From the NCBI GenBank assembly GCA_905479325.1, contig CAJQLW010000070.1, positions 1 to 64,000 of the forward strand: a DNA stretch of 64,000 nt. Direction: 5' to 3'. This document shows positions 35,646-58,340 of the stretch, piece by piece. A program made the translations under genes and the position numbers. The stretch's first letter is position 1, and every line of letters starts with the position of its first letter. The notes below the pieces were generated by a model that saw only the letters and a list, made by a program, of their open reading frames with translations, was not told where the DNA came from and did no database searches. This DNA is from an uncultured Flavobacteriales bacterium. Its GTDB lineage: Bacteria > Bacteroidota > Bacteroidia > Flavobacteriales_E > Vicingaceae.

Positions 35646-36953
35646 ATGATTAACCGGTTAATAGATAAAGTTGGAAGGAAACTACTTGGTAACTCCATGT
35701 GGCTCTTTATCGATAAGATTGTACGATTATTGGTGGGACTTTTTATTGGGGTTTTAGTTGCTCGATATTTGGGTCCTGATCAAGTTGGATTGTGGAATTA
35801 TTGCTTAGCGATTTTTACATTTTTTATCCTCTTCTCCTCTTTAGGATTAGATTATGTAACCCCAAGAGAGTTTGTAAACAACAAGCAAGAGCAAGAGAAA
35901 ATATTAAACACCACCCTTTTTTTAAAGTTTACAGGAGCCACTTTAGGCATCCTATTCTCTACCTTATTTATGGGGTTTTTCAAAGGATTTGACAGTCATT
36001 TAATTCCACTAATATTTATTTTAACTACAGGCTACCTCTTCCAGTCTTTTGATGTTATTGATTATTATTATCAATCAAGACTTGAGCAAAAATATAGTGT
36101 TATTGCAAGAATGATAGCCTTTTTATTGGTCTCTTGTTACAAGTTTTATCTTGTTCAATCAGAGGCTCCCCTGATTTGGTTTGTTGCTTCTTCAACCATA
36201 GACTTTGCACTTGGAGCTGCGGGATTGTTGTACTCTTTTAGAAAATCTCCTTTAAAGATCAGGCTTTCCAGTTTTGATTTTAAATTAGGAAAAAGCTTAT
36301 TAAAAGACTCGATTGTTTTTTCAATCAGTGCTTTTGTTGTCGTATTGTATTATAAAATTGATCAGGTAATGATCACCGAATTTCTTGGAAAACAAGTCAA
36401 TGGAATATACTCTGTTTCTATCCGAATTTATGAACTATTTATATTCATTCCCACCGTATTGGTTGGTTCCTTTCTGCCAGTAATAACGGAAAAGTATAAA
36501 AAGGATGAGCGAGAATTTAAAGCAAGTGTAAAACAACTCTATACCCTTTTGACCTACATGTCCATACTTTTTACACTTTTTGCTTGGTTTGCTGGGCCAT
36601 TTGTTATGGATCTTTTATACGGAGCCAGTTATCAAGGTTCAGGAGAAGCATTGCAATTCATTGGTCTCGGGTTTTATTTTGTTTTTATGGGAATGGGAAC
36701 TGGTATTTATTTGGTCATTCGGAATAAGAAGAAATTTGTTCTTATTAAAAGCCTAATAGGTCTTGGCTTGAACGTATTGGTTAATCTTTGGCTAATACCA
36801 ATCCTAGGAATAAAGGGTGCAATAATAGCGTCAATAATCTCTAATTTTGTTTCGACATTTTTAATTTTAGGATTAAAAGACAATCATGGGCACTTGGAAT
36901 TATTATTAAGTCCTTTCAATATCTCATCCATTAAACGATTTTTGAAGTATTGA
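35646..36953 (+). CDS. Wzx-type polysaccharide flippase
   Basis: Polytopic membrane protein of 435 residues with 12-14 helices, of the oligosaccharide flippase (PST/MATE-like) family. Early signature SMWLFIDKIVRLLVGLFIGVLVARYLGPDQVGLWNY is typical. It moves undecaprenyl-linked repeat units across the inner membrane. First gene of the polysaccharide locus. A near -7 box (TAGCTTTC, 35616-35623) lies 22 bases upstream. About 90 bases of its 3' end recur in a diverged form at 37919-38007. Confidence 0.92.
   Translation: MINRLIDKVGRKLLGNSMWLFIDKIVRLLVGLFIGVLVARYLGPDQVGLWNYCLAIFTFFILFSSLGLDYVTPREFVNNKQEQEKILNTTLFLKFTGATLGILFSTLFMGFFKGFDSHLIPLIFILTTGYLFQSFDVIDYYYQSRLEQKYSVIARMIAFLLVSCYKFYLVQSEAPLIWFVASSTIDFALGAAGLLYSFRKSPLKIRLSSFDFKLGKSLLKDSIVFSISAFVVVLYYKIDQVMITEFLGKQVNGIYSVSIRIYELFIFIPTVLVGSFLPVITEKYKKDEREFKASVKQLYTLLTYMSILFTLFAWFAGPFVMDLLYGASYQGSGEALQFIGLGFYFVFMGMGTGIYLVIRNKKKFVLIKSLIGLGLNVLVNLWLIPILGIKGAIIASIISNFVSTFLILGLKDNHGHLELLLSPFNISSIKRFLKY
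36851..36940 (+). repeat. direct repeat, copy 1 (3' end of the flippase gene)
   Basis: About 80 of 90 positions match the copy at 37919-38007 by eye, including an unbroken stretch from 36905 covering TATTAAGTCC through the later TCATCCATT. This copy codes the last residues of the flippase. Confidence 0.85.
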
Positions 36954-37076
36954 AAAACCTGAAGATATAAAATAGAATGACTTTATTGAACTATTCTAGA
37001 ATAGTATTTTTAACTTGCGATTAATATTTATCAGCTTAATTTATTTTAGGCAGTTGAAGCATTCAAACTACAGAAG

Positions 37077-37859
37077 ATGTTAGAAAAAATTATTTTAAAA
37101 ATTATTGGATTAAATGGATTAATGCTCTTAAAGTCAAAGTTCCCAAGCAAACAAGAAAAAGATTTATTTCTTAAAAGAAGAAACTTTTACAAACAATTTT
37201 TATCTAAAGGAAGTGTTTATTTTGATGTTGGAGCAAACTTTGGGAATCGAATCGAACCAATTATTGATCTTGGAATCAAAGTTATCGCTATAGAACCGCA
37301 AGAGGAATGTAAAAAATATTTGAAAAAGAAGTTTGGAAATAGAATCACTTTGATTCCCTTCGGACTCTCTTCGAAAGAAGGAGAACAAACAATGTTTATT
37401 TCTAACGCACACACTATTTCTTCATTTTCAAAAGATTGGATCGATTTAACTAAAGAAAGTGGAAGGTTTAGTGAATATGAATGGAATAAAGAAAAGATTA
37501 TCCCAATGACTACTCTCGATAATCTAATAAATGATTTTGGAAGTGCTAACTTTATAAAAATAGATGTTGAAGGGTTTGAGTTAGAGGTGCTAAAAGGCTT
37601 GTCGAGTAAAATTGATTTTATATCTTTTGAGTATTCTGTTCCAGAAAATATTGATTTGGTAGTTGGTTGTATAGAAAGGATAAATGAAGTTTCAGTAGGA
37701 GAAGCCACATTTAATTATTCTGTTGGAGAAAGCATGGAGTGGGGAATGGAAAAATGGATGACTTTTGAGGAAATCATTAAGGAAATTCAATCGGAAAGGT
37801 TTATAAAAACAGATTTTGGGGACCTTTATAGTAAAACAACTCACCTAACAAAAAATTAG
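37077..37859 (+). CDS. FkbM-family methyltransferase
   Basis: SAM-dependent O-methyltransferase, 260 residues. SAM-binding loop VYFDVGANFGNRIEP, then AIEPQEECKKYL, MTTLDNLINDF and the FkbM hallmark FIKIDVEGFELEVLKGL. It likely methylates a sugar in the surface polysaccharide. The gene appears more A-rich than its neighbours and lies between the flippase and a second copy of the flippase tail, so it belongs to a cassette that was duplicated or inserted. No overlap with neighbours, unlike most genes in the locus. Confidence 0.88.
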   Translation: MLEKIILKIIGLNGLMLLKSKFPSKQEKDLFLKRRNFYKQFLSKGSVYFDVGANFGNRIEPIIDLGIKVIAIEPQEECKKYLKKKFGNRITLIPFGLSSKEGEQTMFISNAHTISSFSKDWIDLTKESGRFSEYEWNKEKIIPMTTLDNLINDFGSANFIKIDVEGFELEVLKGLSSKIDFISFEYSVPENIDLVVGCIERINEVSVGEATFNYSVGESMEWGMEKWMTFEEIIKEIQSERFIKTDFGDLYSKTTHLTKN

Positions 37860-37918
37860 TTTCAAGGCTAATTGTTGTAGATTTGTTTTATTAAGAATGG
37901 CTTTAATTTCGAAGTGAA

Positions 37919-38007
37919 TTCACCTTTTTAATTCTAGGATTAAAAGGCAATCATCGGCACTTGTAATTTGTATTAAGTCCTTTCAATATCTCATCCATTT
38001 AACGATT
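37919..38007 (+). repeat. direct repeat, copy 2 (diverged flippase 3' end)
   Basis: Remnant of the flippase 3' end with about nine substitutions and one missing base against 36851-36940. It carries no start and is non-coding. It ends near AACGATT, 50 bases ahead of the DUF268 gene. It marks where the flippase once met, or was copied next to, the downstream gene. Confidence 0.85.
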
Positions 38008-38057
38008 CAAACAAGATAAGGGTGGGAATTATATATAAAGCGTTTAACTAGATTAAA

Positions 38058-38846
38058 ATGAATAGCATAAAAGATAAATTAAGAAGCACTTTACTCCTCT
38101 ATGGCTTTGATTTTTCTAAGTTTAAAAGCACCATAAAAGGCTGGTCTTTTTATAAAAAAGATCGAGCCCTTTTTTTAAATCAAAAAGGGTCCAATACAGA
38201 CTTTCCCATGGGTTCGGCATACCCCATTTTAGATGAAAGAACTGAGACTTCAGGCAATATGCGCGGGCATTATTTTCATCAGGATTTATATGTTGCTAGG
38301 CAATTGTTTAAAGATAATCCACAAAAGCATTTGGATATAGGGTCACGTACAGATGGTTTCGTAGCTCATGTTGCTTCTTTTCGTGAAATTGAAGTCATGG
38401 ATATTAGACCCCAAGAAATAGACATTGAGAACATCTCTTTTACACAAGCAGATTTAATGATCTTATCAGAAGAGTTGATTGAAGCCTATGATTCGATATC
38501 TTCTTTGCATGTCATTGAGCATTTTGGATTAGGAAGATATGGAGATCCCATTGATTATTATGGACATTTAAAAGCAGTTGCAAACATCACAAAAATGTTA
38601 AAACCACAAGGGAAATTCTATTTTTCTACTCCTATTGGAAACCAACGAGTTGAGTTTAATGCCCACAGAATTTTTTCAGTAGCGTACCTTTTGTCGCTTT
38701 TCAAAGATGATTATAAAGTAGAGCGTTTTTCTTATGTGAACGATGAGGGAGATTTCTTTGAAGATGAACCACTTGATGAAAAGTCAATAAAAGAGCGCTA
38801 TAACTTTGATTATGGTTGCGGAATTTTTGAATTAAGAAAGAAGTAA
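38058..38846 (+). CDS. DUF268 (methyltransferase-like) protein
   Basis: 262 residues with the DUF268 layout: PILDERTETSGNMRGHYFHQDLYVA, then the Rossmann-like HLDIGSRTDGFVAHVASF (SAM-type loop), DIRPQ, SLHVIEHFGLGRYGDPIDYYG and KPQGKFYFSTPIG. Known from polysaccharide loci. Probably modifies a sugar or glycan, but the reaction is not established. Spaced 8 bases from the next gene. Confidence 0.87.
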   Translation: MNSIKDKLRSTLLLYGFDFSKFKSTIKGWSFYKKDRALFLNQKGSNTDFPMGSAYPILDERTETSGNMRGHYFHQDLYVARQLFKDNPQKHLDIGSRTDGFVAHVASFREIEVMDIRPQEIDIENISFTQADLMILSEELIEAYDSISSLHVIEHFGLGRYGDPIDYYGHLKAVANITKMLKPQGKFYFSTPIGNQRVEFNAHRIFSVAYLLSLFKDDYKVERFSYVNDEGDFFEDEPLDEKSIKERYNFDYGCGIFELRKK

Positions 38847-42410: not shown

Positions 42411-43221
42411 GCCTGAAGTTCAAATATTAATGTCTACTTACAATGGTGCTGCATATTTACGCGAGCAACTAGATAGCCTCATAAACCAAAGCTTCACAAA
42501 CTGGCAACTGCTAATTAGAGACGATGGCTCCAAAGATGACACAGTAAAAATAATTGAACAATACGAAAGCATACACCCTGACAGAATTAAGCAGGTTTTT
42601 AGCGCTGAAGGGGGAGGTTCAAGTGTTAGTTTTACGGGGATGCTAAAGTTTGTTGAGTCACCTTATTGCATGTTTTGTGATCAGGATGATTATTGGGAGA
42701 GCAATAAGATTGAGATTAGTTTAAATCAACTTAAGGAGTTAGAGAAAGAGGATCCGATGTGTCTGGTTTTTACTGACATGGAGGTAGTTTCGGACGATTT
42801 GAAAGCAAATCTAGGGTCGTTTCTTGGTCTTCAAAAGTTGAACCCAAGTTGGATTAAAAATCCAAACAATATTCTTGCCCAGAGCATTGCCGCGGGCTGT
42901 ACAATGATTTTCACCTTGGACCTTATTAAAATGATAAAACCAATCAATGCTGATTTATTTCAACACGACCATTGGGTTTTAATACATGCAGCTATTTATG
43001 GGAATGTGGGTTATTGTGACCAAAAAACGATGAAATATCGTCAGCACAGTCACAACACTATTGGTTCTCACACTATCGATTGGCCTTATTTTTCGAAAAA
43101 AACGAAAGAGCTAGGTACCCTTTTCCAGAGATGGAAGTACATCAAAAAGAAATTTATACACAAAGTCAACATACTTACTCTTTTTTTCGCCAAATTGAGA
43201 TTAAACTTAGATAGATTATAA
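42403..43221 (+). CDS. family 2 glycosyltransferase
   Basis: 272 residues. VQILMSTYNGAAYLREQLDSLINQS, RDDGSKDDT and metal motif CDQDDYW (93-96 acidic). HDHWVLIHAAIYG, then KTMKYRQHSHNTIG are typical of the subgroup with CDQDDxW, including rhamnosyl- and galactosyltransferases. Ends with a one-base overlap with the next start. Confidence 0.9.
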   Translation: MDKPEVQILMSTYNGAAYLREQLDSLINQSFTNWQLLIRDDGSKDDTVKIIEQYESIHPDRIKQVFSAEGGGSSVSFTGMLKFVESPYCMFCDQDDYWESNKIEISLNQLKELEKEDPMCLVFTDMEVVSDDLKANLGSFLGLQKLNPSWIKNPNNILAQSIAAGCTMIFTLDLIKMIKPINADLFQHDHWVLIHAAIYGNVGYCDQKTMKYRQHSHNTIGSHTIDWPYFSKKTKELGTLFQRWKYIKKKFIHKVNILTLFFAKLRLNLDRL

Positions 43222-43982
43222 TGAAGTCGAGCCCCCTCACTGTGATTACAGCTAGTTTCAATAGTCAAGAGACTATTGGGCGAACAATCGAATCCATTTT
43301 AAGCCAAGATCATCGGCCCTTGGAGTATATTATCATAGATGGTGCTTCTACAGATAAAACTTGCGAGATAATTCAGGGGAGTGAGAAAAGGTTTGAAGAA
43401 AAGGGAATTCTATTTAAGTGGATTAGCGAGACTGATCATGGAATATACAGCGCCTGGAATAAAGGTGTTAAAAAGGCAAGTGGTGAATGGATATCATTTT
43501 TGGGTTCTGATGATATTTATACAGAGCAGAGTTTAGATGAGTACAATAAAGCCATAAATGATTTGAATTCAGTGGATTTTATAACTGCTAAAGCTAAGAT
43601 AAAAAGCAAGGGAAAGTTGCTCAGAGATTTTGGAGAACCTTGGAGGTGGAGCATATTTAAGAAGGAGATGAAAATACTGCATGCAGGGGGCTTTTTAAAC
43701 AAGAGTTATTTTCAGGAATATGGGTTGTTTGAGGAATCCTATAAAATTACTGGTTATTATGAGTTATTGCTTAGAAAAGGAGCAAACCTGAAGGTTGGTT
43801 TTATTGATAAATTTTTGGTTGAAATGGAAGATGGGGGAATCAGTAATTCTAATATAAGTGAGGCTTTTAGAGAAGCAACACATGCAAAAATTCATACAGC
43901 TAAAAGAAACAAGCTGTTAGCGAATCTAGAGCGAAACATTGTTTTAACGAAGATTCTAATTAAAAAAGCTCTTGCAAATTGA
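43221..43982 (+). CDS. family 2 glycosyltransferase (WcaE/PGL-type)
   Basis: 253 residues. LTVITASFNSQETIGRTIESIL, YIIIDGASTDKT, then SETDHGIYSAWNKGVKKASGEWISFLGSDD. This SE-DxGIYxAxNKG stretch defines the colanic-acid WcaE-like subgroup. Catalytic aspartates at 97-98. Stop overlaps the polymerase start by 4 bases. Confidence 0.9.
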   Translation: MKSSPLTVITASFNSQETIGRTIESILSQDHRPLEYIIIDGASTDKTCEIIQGSEKRFEEKGILFKWISETDHGIYSAWNKGVKKASGEWISFLGSDDIYTEQSLDEYNKAINDLNSVDFITAKAKIKSKGKLLRDFGEPWRWSIFKKEMKILHAGGFLNKSYFQEYGLFEESYKITGYYELLLRKGANLKVGFIDKFLVEMEDGGISNSNISEAFREATHAKIHTAKRNKLLANLERNIVLTKILIKKALAN

Positions 43983-45175
43983 AGTTTTTGAAAGCACATT
44001 TATTTAAAGTTTTAGGTTACGTTTTTTTCCTATTCAACTCTATTGGGCTGCCGACGCCACTATTATACACAAATGTGATATCTATTCTAGGCATTAAGTC
44101 ACACTTTACTAAGGAGGCACGTAAGGTTTTAGGAGTCTTCGTTCTGCTTTCTGCAATATACTTGACTATCCATTTCCTAACAGGAGTAGATGTAATAGAG
44201 TATGTTAAAAGTTTGGTGTTTATGTATTTAATGGTTTTTACAGCTCTAGTGTCTTTTAATTATATTAAGCAAGAGTCTCATCAACTAGAGCAACTTTTTG
44301 AGAATATTGCATACATTACGTTTACCTTATTTGTGGTTTCAGGATTATTATATTTTACATCATTAAAGGATCTCATCTGGGTTAATCATGATTTTTCCAT
44401 TCAGGGTAGTGTTCCTCGCTACAAGTTATTAGCTTACGAACCTTCATATTTTGCGCTACTCATGTCTCCGGCATTTATTTTCTTTTTTCTAAAAACAATT
44501 TATGTTGATTTCAAGAAAAATATAGTTAAGATGTTGATGGTGTTGATACCATGTTTTTTCACGCTCTCTTTTGGCTTTTTTGGTGTTTTAGTTTTATCTA
44601 CTGTACTTTTTTTACTTTTTGTTTTGTTCAAGCATCGAACTATTCACAGGGCTTTTTTATATCCCGCAATATTTTTGATTTTTGCCGGTGCTGCGTCACT
44701 TTCATTTGACAATGTTTTATCGAATAGAATAGGTAAAGTTCTTTCAGGGGAGGACTCTTCTGTTAATGGGAGATTAACAGAGTCGTATTATTTAGCCAAC
44801 AAAATGGTTCAAGAAGAGGATAAGTTTTTTGGAGTTGGACTTGGACAAATTGAAATTGTAGGAGAAAAGTACATTCGAGAATATTACAACTATCCAATAG
44901 AGGAGTGGCCTGTTGTTTCTCTTCCTAATGCTACAGCTGAAACATTAGCAATGTACGGTTATCCCGGATTAGTTATTAGGTTCTCTTTAGTGATATTTCT
45001 GTTTTTTAAATTCAAAGTATACCGCAATTATTTTAATCTATTATTTTTTCTATTTCTGTTTGTTTATCAACTTATGGGTAGTTTCTTTACGTCAACTGCT
45101 GAGCTAACCTTATGGATTATAGCGATCTTGCCTATTTTCAAAGAGTTCCAAATACAGTCGTCCCGAAATTTTTAA
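43979..45175 (+). CDS. Wzy-like polysaccharide polymerase
   Basis: 398 residues with ten or more hydrophobic helices and a large periplasmic loop (about 250-335) that contains RLTESYYLANKM, FFGVGLGQIE and the helical VVSLPNATAETLAMYGYPGL. This is the layout of O-antigen polymerases, which join repeat units in the periplasm. Sequence conservation is low in the family, so the call rests on topology and position. TTG at 43979 is the start, inside the stop of the previous gene. Confidence 0.8.
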   Translation: MKFLKAHLFKVLGYVFFLFNSIGLPTPLLYTNVISILGIKSHFTKEARKVLGVFVLLSAIYLTIHFLTGVDVIEYVKSLVFMYLMVFTALVSFNYIKQESHQLEQLFENIAYITFTLFVVSGLLYFTSLKDLIWVNHDFSIQGSVPRYKLLAYEPSYFALLMSPAFIFFFLKTIYVDFKKNIVKMLMVLIPCFFTLSFGFFGVLVLSTVLFLLFVLFKHRTIHRAFLYPAIFLIFAGAASLSFDNVLSNRIGKVLSGEDSSVNGRLTESYYLANKMVQEEDKFFGVGLGQIEIVGEKYIREYYNYPIEEWPVVSLPNATAETLAMYGYPGLVIRFSLVIFLFFKFKVYRNYFNLLFFLFLFVYQLMGSFFTSTAELTLWIIAILPIFKEFQIQSSRNF

Positions 45176-45185
45176 TTGATTTAAA

Positions 45186-46259
45186 ATGAAAGTTTTACTA
45201 ATTAGCAGACCTACTCTGTTTTCGGCGCCCGGTGGGGATACTGTTCAAATAAGGGAGACTGCTAATGAGTTAATAAAGCTAGGAGTGGAAGCAGATATTT
45301 GTTTGGCAGATGAGGTAGTAAATTATGACTCATACGACTTGCTCCACTTTTTTAATATTATAAGGCCAAACACAATATCAGGACACGTTAAAAAGTCAAA
45401 TTTACCGTTTGTTATTTCTACCATTTTTGTTGATTATTCTGAAATTGAACGAAGTGAGAGAGGACTTCTATTTAGGTTTTTGGCTAAGGTATTTGGTCCT
45501 GACGGAACCGATTATTTTAAAACCATTGGGCGTTTAATTTTTAACAAAGAAAAAATTATTGATCGTTCTTATTTGTTTTACGGACATAGAAAAAGCGCGG
45601 AGAAGCTTTTGAATTCAGCGAGTAAACTATTACCTAACTCTGATAATGAATTTAGAAGATTAAAAGAGCGATATAATTTTAGGAATACCTATACAAAGAT
45701 TCCAAATGGTGTAACTAACGATTTTATAGATCAAAAGTCTACTCATCAAAAAGGGATGGGTGTGGTTTGTGTTGGTAGAATTGAGTTTGTCAAAAATCAA
45801 CTGAATTTAATTAAGGCGCTAAAAGGAACAGGGATTCCATTGAAGATAATTGGCCAACCCGCACCAAATCACAAGGCATATTATGAACAATGCAAAAAAG
45901 AGGCGACAGATAATATTCAATTTCTAGGTCAGAAGAGTAAAGAAGAGATTATTCATGAGTTAGATCAAGCGAAAGTTCATGTGTTACCTAGTTGGTTTGA
46001 AACAACTGGACTGAGTTCCATAGAAGCTCTTGCCCGAAGATGCAACATTGTAATTACAAAAAAGGGAGATACTGAGGAGTATTTTGAAGATTTTGCTTTT
46101 TATTGTGACCCTCAAAGTCCTGATTCAATTCGTGAAGCAATAGAGAGAGCATTAGAGGAGGACGTGAACCCTGAGTTAAATAAATTTATTCGACAAAATT
46201 TCACTTGGCAGAATGCCGCGCAGAAAACCCTGAAGGCGTATCAAAAAGTTTTGAGCTAA
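45186..46259 (+). CDS. family 4 glycosyltransferase
   Basis: GT-B fold, 357 residues. KVLLISRPTLFSAPGGDTVQIRET at the N terminus, nucleotide-binding half with VCVGRIEFVKNQLNLIKAL, KIIGQP, IQFLGQKSKEEI and the EX7E motif in SWFETTGLSSIEAL. Retaining enzyme acting on a nucleotide sugar. ATG lies 10 bases after the polymerase stop. Confidence 0.92.
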   Translation: MKVLLISRPTLFSAPGGDTVQIRETANELIKLGVEADICLADEVVNYDSYDLLHFFNIIRPNTISGHVKKSNLPFVISTIFVDYSEIERSERGLLFRFLAKVFGPDGTDYFKTIGRLIFNKEKIIDRSYLFYGHRKSAEKLLNSASKLLPNSDNEFRRLKERYNFRNTYTKIPNGVTNDFIDQKSTHQKGMGVVCVGRIEFVKNQLNLIKALKGTGIPLKIIGQPAPNHKAYYEQCKKEATDNIQFLGQKSKEEIIHELDQAKVHVLPSWFETTGLSSIEALARRCNIVITKKGDTEEYFEDFAFYCDPQSPDSIREAIERALEEDVNPELNKFIRQNFTWQNAAQKTLKAYQKVLS

Positions 46260-56273: not shown

Positions 56274-58340
56274 ATGGCAATAATTGGAAAAATAAGAGAG
56301 CGATCATTCTTAGTTCTCGTAATAATTGGAATAGCAATTTTAGCTTTCGTTTTAACGGATTTGTTTACGGCACAGTCAAATGGTCAGCAGGCTCCTTTGA
56401 GTATTGCTGAAGTTAATGGTCAGCAAATTTCACCACAAGAATTTGAATTTAAAGTTCAAAAGCAGTACGAAAATTATCAGAAACAAACTCAACAAGAGCT
56501 TGATGAAAGGACAAAGTCTACCATCAGAGAATCGGTTTGGGCTGAAATGACTTCAGACATTTTAATTGGAGAACAATTAGAAGAGCTTGGTATTTCGGTA
56601 ACCACCAAAGAGTTGATGGATTTAGTGAGTGGTTCAAATCCTCACCCACAGGTTCGTCAAGCGTTTACTGATCCGAACACAGGTCAGTTCAACAAGGATG
56701 CAGTTATCCAATTTTTGCAAAACTTAGATAACGACCCAGCAACAAAGGCTCAATGGGTTGATTTTGAGAAGGCATTAAAGCGAAATCATAGAATGGATAA
56801 ATACAATACTTTAATAAAGAAAGGTATTTATACACCATCTGCTTTTGCTACTTCAATGTACAAAGAGAATAATGGAGCAATGGCATTTAAATACATATTT
56901 AAGCCATATTCTTCAATCGAGGACGCAACTGTTGAAGTTTTAGAATCTGAAGTAAGTGCATTTTACAACAAGACGAAAACAGATTATGAGCAAAAAGCAA
57001 GCAGAAAAATTGCCTATGCTTATTACCCAATTGTACCTTCTGAACAAGATCAGGCAGAAACTAAACAGTGGGTTGATAGAATTTACCAGGAGTTCCAAAC
57101 TAGCGCAAATGATTCAACATTTGTAAATGCAAACTCTGATCAAGAATTTATTCCAACATACTACTCTGAGTCTAATGCTCCAATAGGAGCGGATACTTCA
57201 TTGTGGGATCAAGATTCAGCTTATGTTGCTGCACCTAAATTAGTAGGTGACATTTGGTCTATTTCAAAGGTGAAAGATGTAAAGATGGCTCCGGATTCAG
57301 TTAGAGCGAGACATATATTGATAGGCACTCAAAACAGAGCCAAAGCTGCGGCTGAAAAAACGACAGATAGTGTTTTAGTGGCGCTTAGAGCTGGAACTCC
57401 TTTTGATTCTTTAGTTTCTCTGTCAGATGATAAGGCTTCTGCCGAAAAAGGTGGAGATTTGGATTGGTTTGCTGAGGGAATGATGGTAAAGCCATTTAAC
57501 GACGCAGCTTTTACTGCGGAAATCGGAGAGTTTTCTAAAATTGAAACTCAATTTGGTTACCACATTATTGAGGTTACTGAAAAATTGCCGGCTGTAAAGA
57601 AAATTCAAATCGCAACAATAACTCGTGAAGTGAAGCCAAGTAAAGCTACTTATGAGGATTTGTTCAATCAAGCTACCAGCTTTTCTATTAATGTAACAGA
57701 CATGGAGTCGTTTAGAGAAGAATTGACTAAAAACAACATTCAGCAGCGTTCTGCAGTTTTGGCTGAAAACGCCAATTTAGTTGAGGGTTTGGGCGCTTCT
57801 AGAGACTTAGCAAGATGGACTCAAGATGCAGAGCAAGGAGATGTTTCAGAAGCGAAAGACGTTGAAGGAGCCTTTGTTGTTGCCATTGTAGAAAATGTTG
57901 ATAAAGAAGGAATAGCACCTTTAGAAAAAGTAAGAAATCGAGTTGAATTCCTTGCAAGACAGGAGAAAAAGGCTGATATTCTTAAAAAGGAATTAGCTGA
58001 TGCAAGTGATATTGGAAGCTTGGCAGGAAAAACAGGTTTGTCTGTTGAGAATGCAAATGTAACTTTCGCAAGTCCTGCAATACCAAGTGTTGGTTTAGAG
58101 CCAATAGTTGTTGGTGCAGCATGGTCATTAACTCCTGGGCAGTTAAGTCAGCCGATAGCTGGAAACAGCGGAGTTTTTGTTGTGTCAGTTGACAAAAATG
58201 TTGATGCAGGACCGACCAACTTAGTTCAAGTAAGACAAAATGAATTTAGAAATATTGCTTCTAGAGTAGACAATGGAGCAGTTTACAATGCCTTAAAGGG
58301 AAAGGCAGATTTAGTAGACAATCGATCTAAGTTTTATTAA
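56274..58340 (+). CDS. ppiD: PpiD-type peptidylprolyl isomerase
   Basis: 688 residues. Membrane anchor near the start (FLVLVIIGIAILAFVLTDLF), SurA-like N-terminal chaperone domain (SIAEVNGQQISPQEFEFKV), and a parvulin (PPIC) domain at about 340-440 with RARHILIG, LSDDKASAEKGGDLDWFAEGMMVKPF and FGYHIIEVTEK. A second, divergent isomerase-like region follows. Assists folding of outer-membrane proteins in the periplasm. Ends before a strong terminator. Confidence 0.92.
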   Translation: MAIIGKIRERSFLVLVIIGIAILAFVLTDLFTAQSNGQQAPLSIAEVNGQQISPQEFEFKVQKQYENYQKQTQQELDERTKSTIRESVWAEMTSDILIGEQLEELGISVTTKELMDLVSGSNPHPQVRQAFTDPNTGQFNKDAVIQFLQNLDNDPATKAQWVDFEKALKRNHRMDKYNTLIKKGIYTPSAFATSMYKENNGAMAFKYIFKPYSSIEDATVEVLESEVSAFYNKTKTDYEQKASRKIAYAYYPIVPSEQDQAETKQWVDRIYQEFQTSANDSTFVNANSDQEFIPTYYSESNAPIGADTSLWDQDSAYVAAPKLVGDIWSISKVKDVKMAPDSVRARHILIGTQNRAKAAAEKTTDSVLVALRAGTPFDSLVSLSDDKASAEKGGDLDWFAEGMMVKPFNDAAFTAEIGEFSKIETQFGYHIIEVTEKLPAVKKIQIATITREVKPSKATYEDLFNQATSFSINVTDMESFREELTKNNIQQRSAVLAENANLVEGLGASRDLARWTQDAEQGDVSEAKDVEGAFVVAIVENVDKEGIAPLEKVRNRVEFLARQEKKADILKKELADASDIGSLAGKTGLSVENANVTFASPAIPSVGLEPIVVGAAWSLTPGQLSQPIAGNSGVFVVSVDKNVDAGPTNLVQVRQNEFRNIASRVDNGAVYNALKGKADLVDNRSKFY

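Follow-up and report, generated by a model that had tools for sequence, protein, structure and literature searches.

A decayed flippase 3′ end behind an apparently gained FkbM-family methyltransferase gene in a surface-polysaccharide locus of an uncultured marine Flavobacteriales bacterium

We analysed a stretch of 64 000 nucleotides (the window) from the genome of an uncultured marine Flavobacteriales bacterium. Within its surface-polysaccharide locus, an intact flippase gene (wzx) is followed by an FkbM-family gene, a second copy of the flippase 3′ end and a DUF268 gene. The features of this region are as follows.

35646–36953, + strand: intact flippase (wzx-like) gene, 435 aa; PF01943 at 64.6 bits (cut-off 28.2); 73–74% amino acid identity to orthologues of the same genus.
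36855–36940, + strand: copy 1 of the repeat, within the coding end of wzx (repeat search, self-BLAST).
36954–37076, + strand: spacer between wzx and FkbM, 25% GC, with weak similarity to the leader between wzx and a 214-aa gene in one relative.
37077–37859, + strand: FkbM-family methyltransferase gene, apparently gained, occupying the position that the 214-aa gene has in relatives (PF05050, TIGR01444, composition, tree, absence from this slot in relatives).
37860–37921, + strand: spacer between FkbM and copy 2, containing TAGATTTGT (37878–37886), a suggestive element.
37922–38007, + strand: copy 2 of the repeat, best read as an orphan tail, i.e. a decayed, non-coding wzx 3′ fragment (90.7% identity, two stops).
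38008–38057, + strand: leader of the DUF268 gene; by its position, the presumed right end of a deletion that removed the 214-aa gene.
38058–38846, + strand: DUF268 gene, native to the locus; PF03269 at 64.8 bits; 71–73% identity to the genes of the relatives G004 and G005.

The two copies form an ungapped direct repeat of 86 nt with a spacing of 1067 bp, as identified by repeat search. In a self-BLAST of the whole 64 kb, the pair was found at E=2.5×10−27. The next-ranking self-matches had E values of at least 10−6 and were for the most part short palindromes; the pair is the only long direct repeat of the window. No third copy was reported elsewhere in the 2.7 Mb genome. The original prediction, made for positions 36851–38007, was that the last ~90 bases of the flippase gene recur at about 89% identity. 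This interval spans both copies, and the similarity did not fall to background on proper alignment. The repeat is real but comprises 86 bases, and copy 2 lacks the final 13 bp of wzx, counted to the end of the stop codon. Each end of copy 2 corresponds to a position inside wzx; past the 86 bp, the flanks, upstream into wzx and downstream into the spacer, are no more similar than expected by chance.

Read in the flippase frame, the eight differences between the copies are two synonymous, four missense and two nonsense changes (six of eight non-synonymous). Copy 2 lies between FkbM (which ends at 37859) and the DUF268 gene (which starts at 38058), outside any reading frame as had been proposed, and is non-coding because two of its changes are in-frame stops. 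At informative positions, copy 1 has the residues of the relatives and copy 2 has derived, disabling changes. Together with the stops, this indicates that copy 2 is a dead, drifting fragment, for which an orphaned 3′ end of wzx is the best interpretation. The two copies are far closer to each other than either is to the flippase tail of any relative, so the duplication occurred after this lineage and the relatives sampled had diverged. An assembly artefact of the metagenome bin might be suspected, given that the genome is fragmented (96 contigs, completeness about 92%) and that the copies share a run of nearly 30 bp without any difference. However, copy 2 carries mutations of its own and is bordered left and right by unique sequence, and the FkbM and DUF268 genes are intact and collinear in a coherent cluster. 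We therefore regard an artefact as extremely unlikely.

An orthologous flippase was found in four genomes, three from the same genus (G003, G004 and G005; 73–74% amino acid identity) and one from another genus of the family (G013; 56%). The contigs recovered for these four relatives in an alignment scan were CAJXRL010000157.1, CAJJAT010000015.1, JAESST010000086.1 and PALM01000017.1, all from Flavobacteriales metagenome-assembled genomes. The gene that follows the flippase is the 214-aa gene in all four. Behind it lies the DUF268 gene in G004 and G005, and the gene of a 309-aa protein directly in G003 and G013. It had been proposed that FkbM was simply inserted between flippase and DUF268 gene, with the expectation that relatives would show these two genes side by side. 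This is not supported: none of the genomes compared has wzx directly followed by DUF268, and relatives with an orthologous wzx carry the 214-aa gene at this place. The 214-aa gene is absent from the genome of the window, and no remnant of it was detected within 36900–38100. Since this gene always lies 3′ of an orthologous wzx and is missing here, FkbM replaced the resident 214-aa gene, relative to the sampled relatives. The four relatives have neither orphan tails nor direct repeats of at least 40 bp. A second full flippase, which it had been suggested to look for in relatives, was not found at the locus in any of them, nor was a pair of coding flippase tails.

The protein of the 214-aa gene has no significant Pfam match. 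An AlphaFold model based on four sequences (mean pLDDT 79) gave SAM-dependent methyltransferases as its best Foldseek matches (best E=3×10−9, TM about 0.5). Two conserved stretches, VETGTFMGD and YSIELS, resemble SAM-binding motifs. The modelled structure suggests that the protein probably has a methyltransferase fold. The FkbM protein is assigned as a methyltransferase by its matches to Pfam (PF05050, 67.1 bits; cut-off 22.7) and NCBIfam (TIGR01444, 74.8 bits; cut-off 37.7). From these matches and the model fold, the slot has exchanged one probable methyltransferase for an unrelated one, with a presumed sugar-modifying function.

Several lines of evidence indicate that FkbM was gained, as the original prediction had it. 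Its GC content (30.1%) and GC3 (24%) are the lowest among the 48 genes of the window, and its codon use is the third most deviant; the comparison of base composition and codon use that had been proposed thus sets the gene apart. The most deviant codon use (z 4.9) belongs to the gene at 56274–58337, which has normal GC. In the phylogenetic tree, FkbM groups (95/94 support) with proteins of G104 and G252, which are from other families and 55–57% identical; the long branches leave the exact sister uncertain. The same group includes a protein from a polysaccharide island of G001, a member of the same genus (48% identity). The family has an FkbM clade of its own, present in many members, which is distinct from FkbM of the window and which, in the loci examined, adjoins the gene of a ~1000-aa protein. 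At the slot adjacent to wzx, FkbM is absent from all relatives and present in the window alone. Absence from the slot, composition and placement outside the family clade together support a gain.

The DUF268 protein of the window matches Methyltransf_23 in addition to PF03269. In G104, too, an FkbM gene lies beside a DUF268 gene (locus L065, 8821–10422), and the two families may possibly be functionally paired. Co-transfer of the two genes was considered and rejected. The DUF268 protein of the window is 71–73% identical to that of the native gene in relatives and 33% identical to that of G104, so the pair was not imported together.

The element TAGATTTGT occurs once in the 64 kb, 3′ of FkbM (37878–37886), and three relatives have it upstream of their 214-aa gene. 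It is possibly a Bacteroidetes-type promoter (TAnnTTTG) that outlasted the gene it once served, but other weak matches point elsewhere.

We hypothesize that the structure arose by an insertion that was anchored in wzx and had an illegitimate right joint, followed by deletion of the 214-aa gene. Incoming DNA from a close relative would have carried the 3′ part of wzx and FkbM. Its left end would have recombined homologously within wzx, and its right end would have been joined illegitimately to the resident wzx, ~100 bp short of the end of that gene. A single insertion of this kind would yield an intact wzx, FkbM, an orphan wzx tail and the resident downstream genes, with the old 3′ end pushed downstream. 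A later deletion, which began in the orphan tail 13 bp ahead of its end and extended to the DUF268 leader, would have removed the 214-aa gene. The net effect would be the exchange of one probable glycan methyltransferase for another. We infer this route and order of events from the arrangement of the remnants, and consider it the best explanation, with about even confidence that it is correct.

In favour of this scenario, copy 2 ends at 38007, before the wzx stop codon, the outcome expected of a deletion that ran through the 214-aa gene. Against it, two events are required. FkbM is present and the 214-aa gene of relatives absent, and these two changes may not have come about in one event. We detected no intermediates, i.e. 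neither a tail followed by the 214-aa gene nor FkbM together with the 214-aa gene. The joint at 37921/37922 shows no clear microhomology, and the spacers have diverged too far to be traced. As to the homologous anchor, the repeat shows that wzx sequence was involved, and sliding identity revealed no donor block or boundary in wzx, as would be the case with a close donor.

The same structure could result from Campbell-type integration of a circular or circularized molecule that carried FkbM and a short wzx tail, after which the 214-aa gene would have been deleted as above. A single cross-over with circularized incoming DNA has been documented (PMC3240628) and predicts exactly an insert flanked by direct repeats. 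However, the molecule would have to be circular and include a minimal part of wzx, the unit is devoid of plasmid or mobile genes, and plasmid records contain only distant relatives of wzx, making this route unlikely. FkbM is the only gene of the inserted unit, which has no integrase, IS or plasmid gene. We rejected integrase- or IS-mediated integration on account of this gene content, and site-specific integration at the gene 3′ end also on account of the end of copy 2, 13 bp before the end of wzx; plasmid carriage was rejected in view of the plasmid records.

The original prediction had interpreted the repeat as the footprint of gene insertion or of tandem duplication with later loss. A footprint of gene gain is indeed what we find; tandem duplication is possible but takes more steps. 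FkbM would first replace the 214-aa gene, the 1067-bp unit of wzx tail and FkbM would then double, and the second FkbM would be deleted. The observed structure is compatible with these three events, but the 50 bp 3′ of the tail contain no FkbM remnant, and we consider this history quite doubtful. Alternatively, two unconnected events may have occurred. FkbM would have replaced the 214-aa gene by ordinary homologous recombination and, separately, a patch of wzx would have been copied into the spacer between FkbM and DUF268. Short-patch illegitimate recombination is a route for such copying, and both ends of copy 2 lie inside wzx, as they would in a random patch. This reading is improbable, as the position of the sole such patch of the window, immediately 3′ of the replaced gene, would then be a coincidence. 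One extension of the anchored insertion is that the slot behind wzx serves as a recurrent methyltransferase exchange slot in the genus, with the wzx 3′ end as recurrent anchor, and that the repeat could permit excision of FkbM and thus a reversible gain; we give this idea only a slim chance.

The locus is a serotype-like mosaic, with contents that vary between a fixed left flank (dxr/vWA) and a fixed right flank (sugar transferase); at the position of wzx, the flippases of G001 and G002 are either unrelated to it or related only distantly. This variability suggests that recombination at this polysaccharide locus is frequent, which makes a rare illegitimate joint plausible. A block at 43221–46259, encoding a glycosyltransferase, a Wzy-like membrane protein and another glycosyltransferase, has no counterpart in G004 and G005, for which the loci retrieved span this stretch. 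G002 has its genes in the same order, with 52, 42 and 59% identity. By gene content, this block appears to be a second imported module, which would make the cluster of the window a hybrid that combines two locus types and has two Wzy/ligase-like genes.

Comparable footprints have been described elsewhere. In homology-facilitated illegitimate recombination, the incoming DNA enters by homologous recombination at one end and by an illegitimate joint at the other (PMC3240628). As in such events in transformable bacteria, ~1 kb was gained and ~0.6 kb lost, here beside a presumed homologous anchor. In the described events, however, the deletion comes with the insertion, whereas a separate deletion is implied here because the orphan tail was retained. 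Pneumococcal transformation generates tandem duplications and merodiploids (PMC3784515). In T6SS clusters of Vibrio and, by hypothesis, in Rhs loci, recombination of this type pushes the old gene aside, and orphaned 3′ ends remain downstream of the newly arrived module (PMC5361080). The likeness to these orphaned 3′ ends of effector-immunity and Rhs genes lies in a new gene behind a conserved gene, a 3′ remnant in the same orientation further downstream and the loss of the old function. Unlike in those systems, it is the anchor gene itself, the flippase, whose end forms the remnant, and the locus makes a polysaccharide; moreover, the displaced downstream gene (the 214-aa gene) was lost here, but is kept there. 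The scar thus adds a polysaccharide locus to the examples of a footprint of known type and involves no new principle. Fixed chromosomal flanks, variable contents and gene-by-gene replacement are also features of the mosaicism of Wzx/Wzy-type capsule and O-antigen loci, although here the host is an uncultured marine member of the Flavobacteriales.

Taken together, our findings describe a well-preserved scar of methyltransferase gene replacement in a surface-polysaccharide locus of this bacterium. They point to the swapping of single genes within a larger mosaic, in which the vWA and dxr flank is fixed and the interior is variable. Such swaps would be expected to change the decoration of the glycan, and a changed decoration may in turn alter recognition by phages or grazers.
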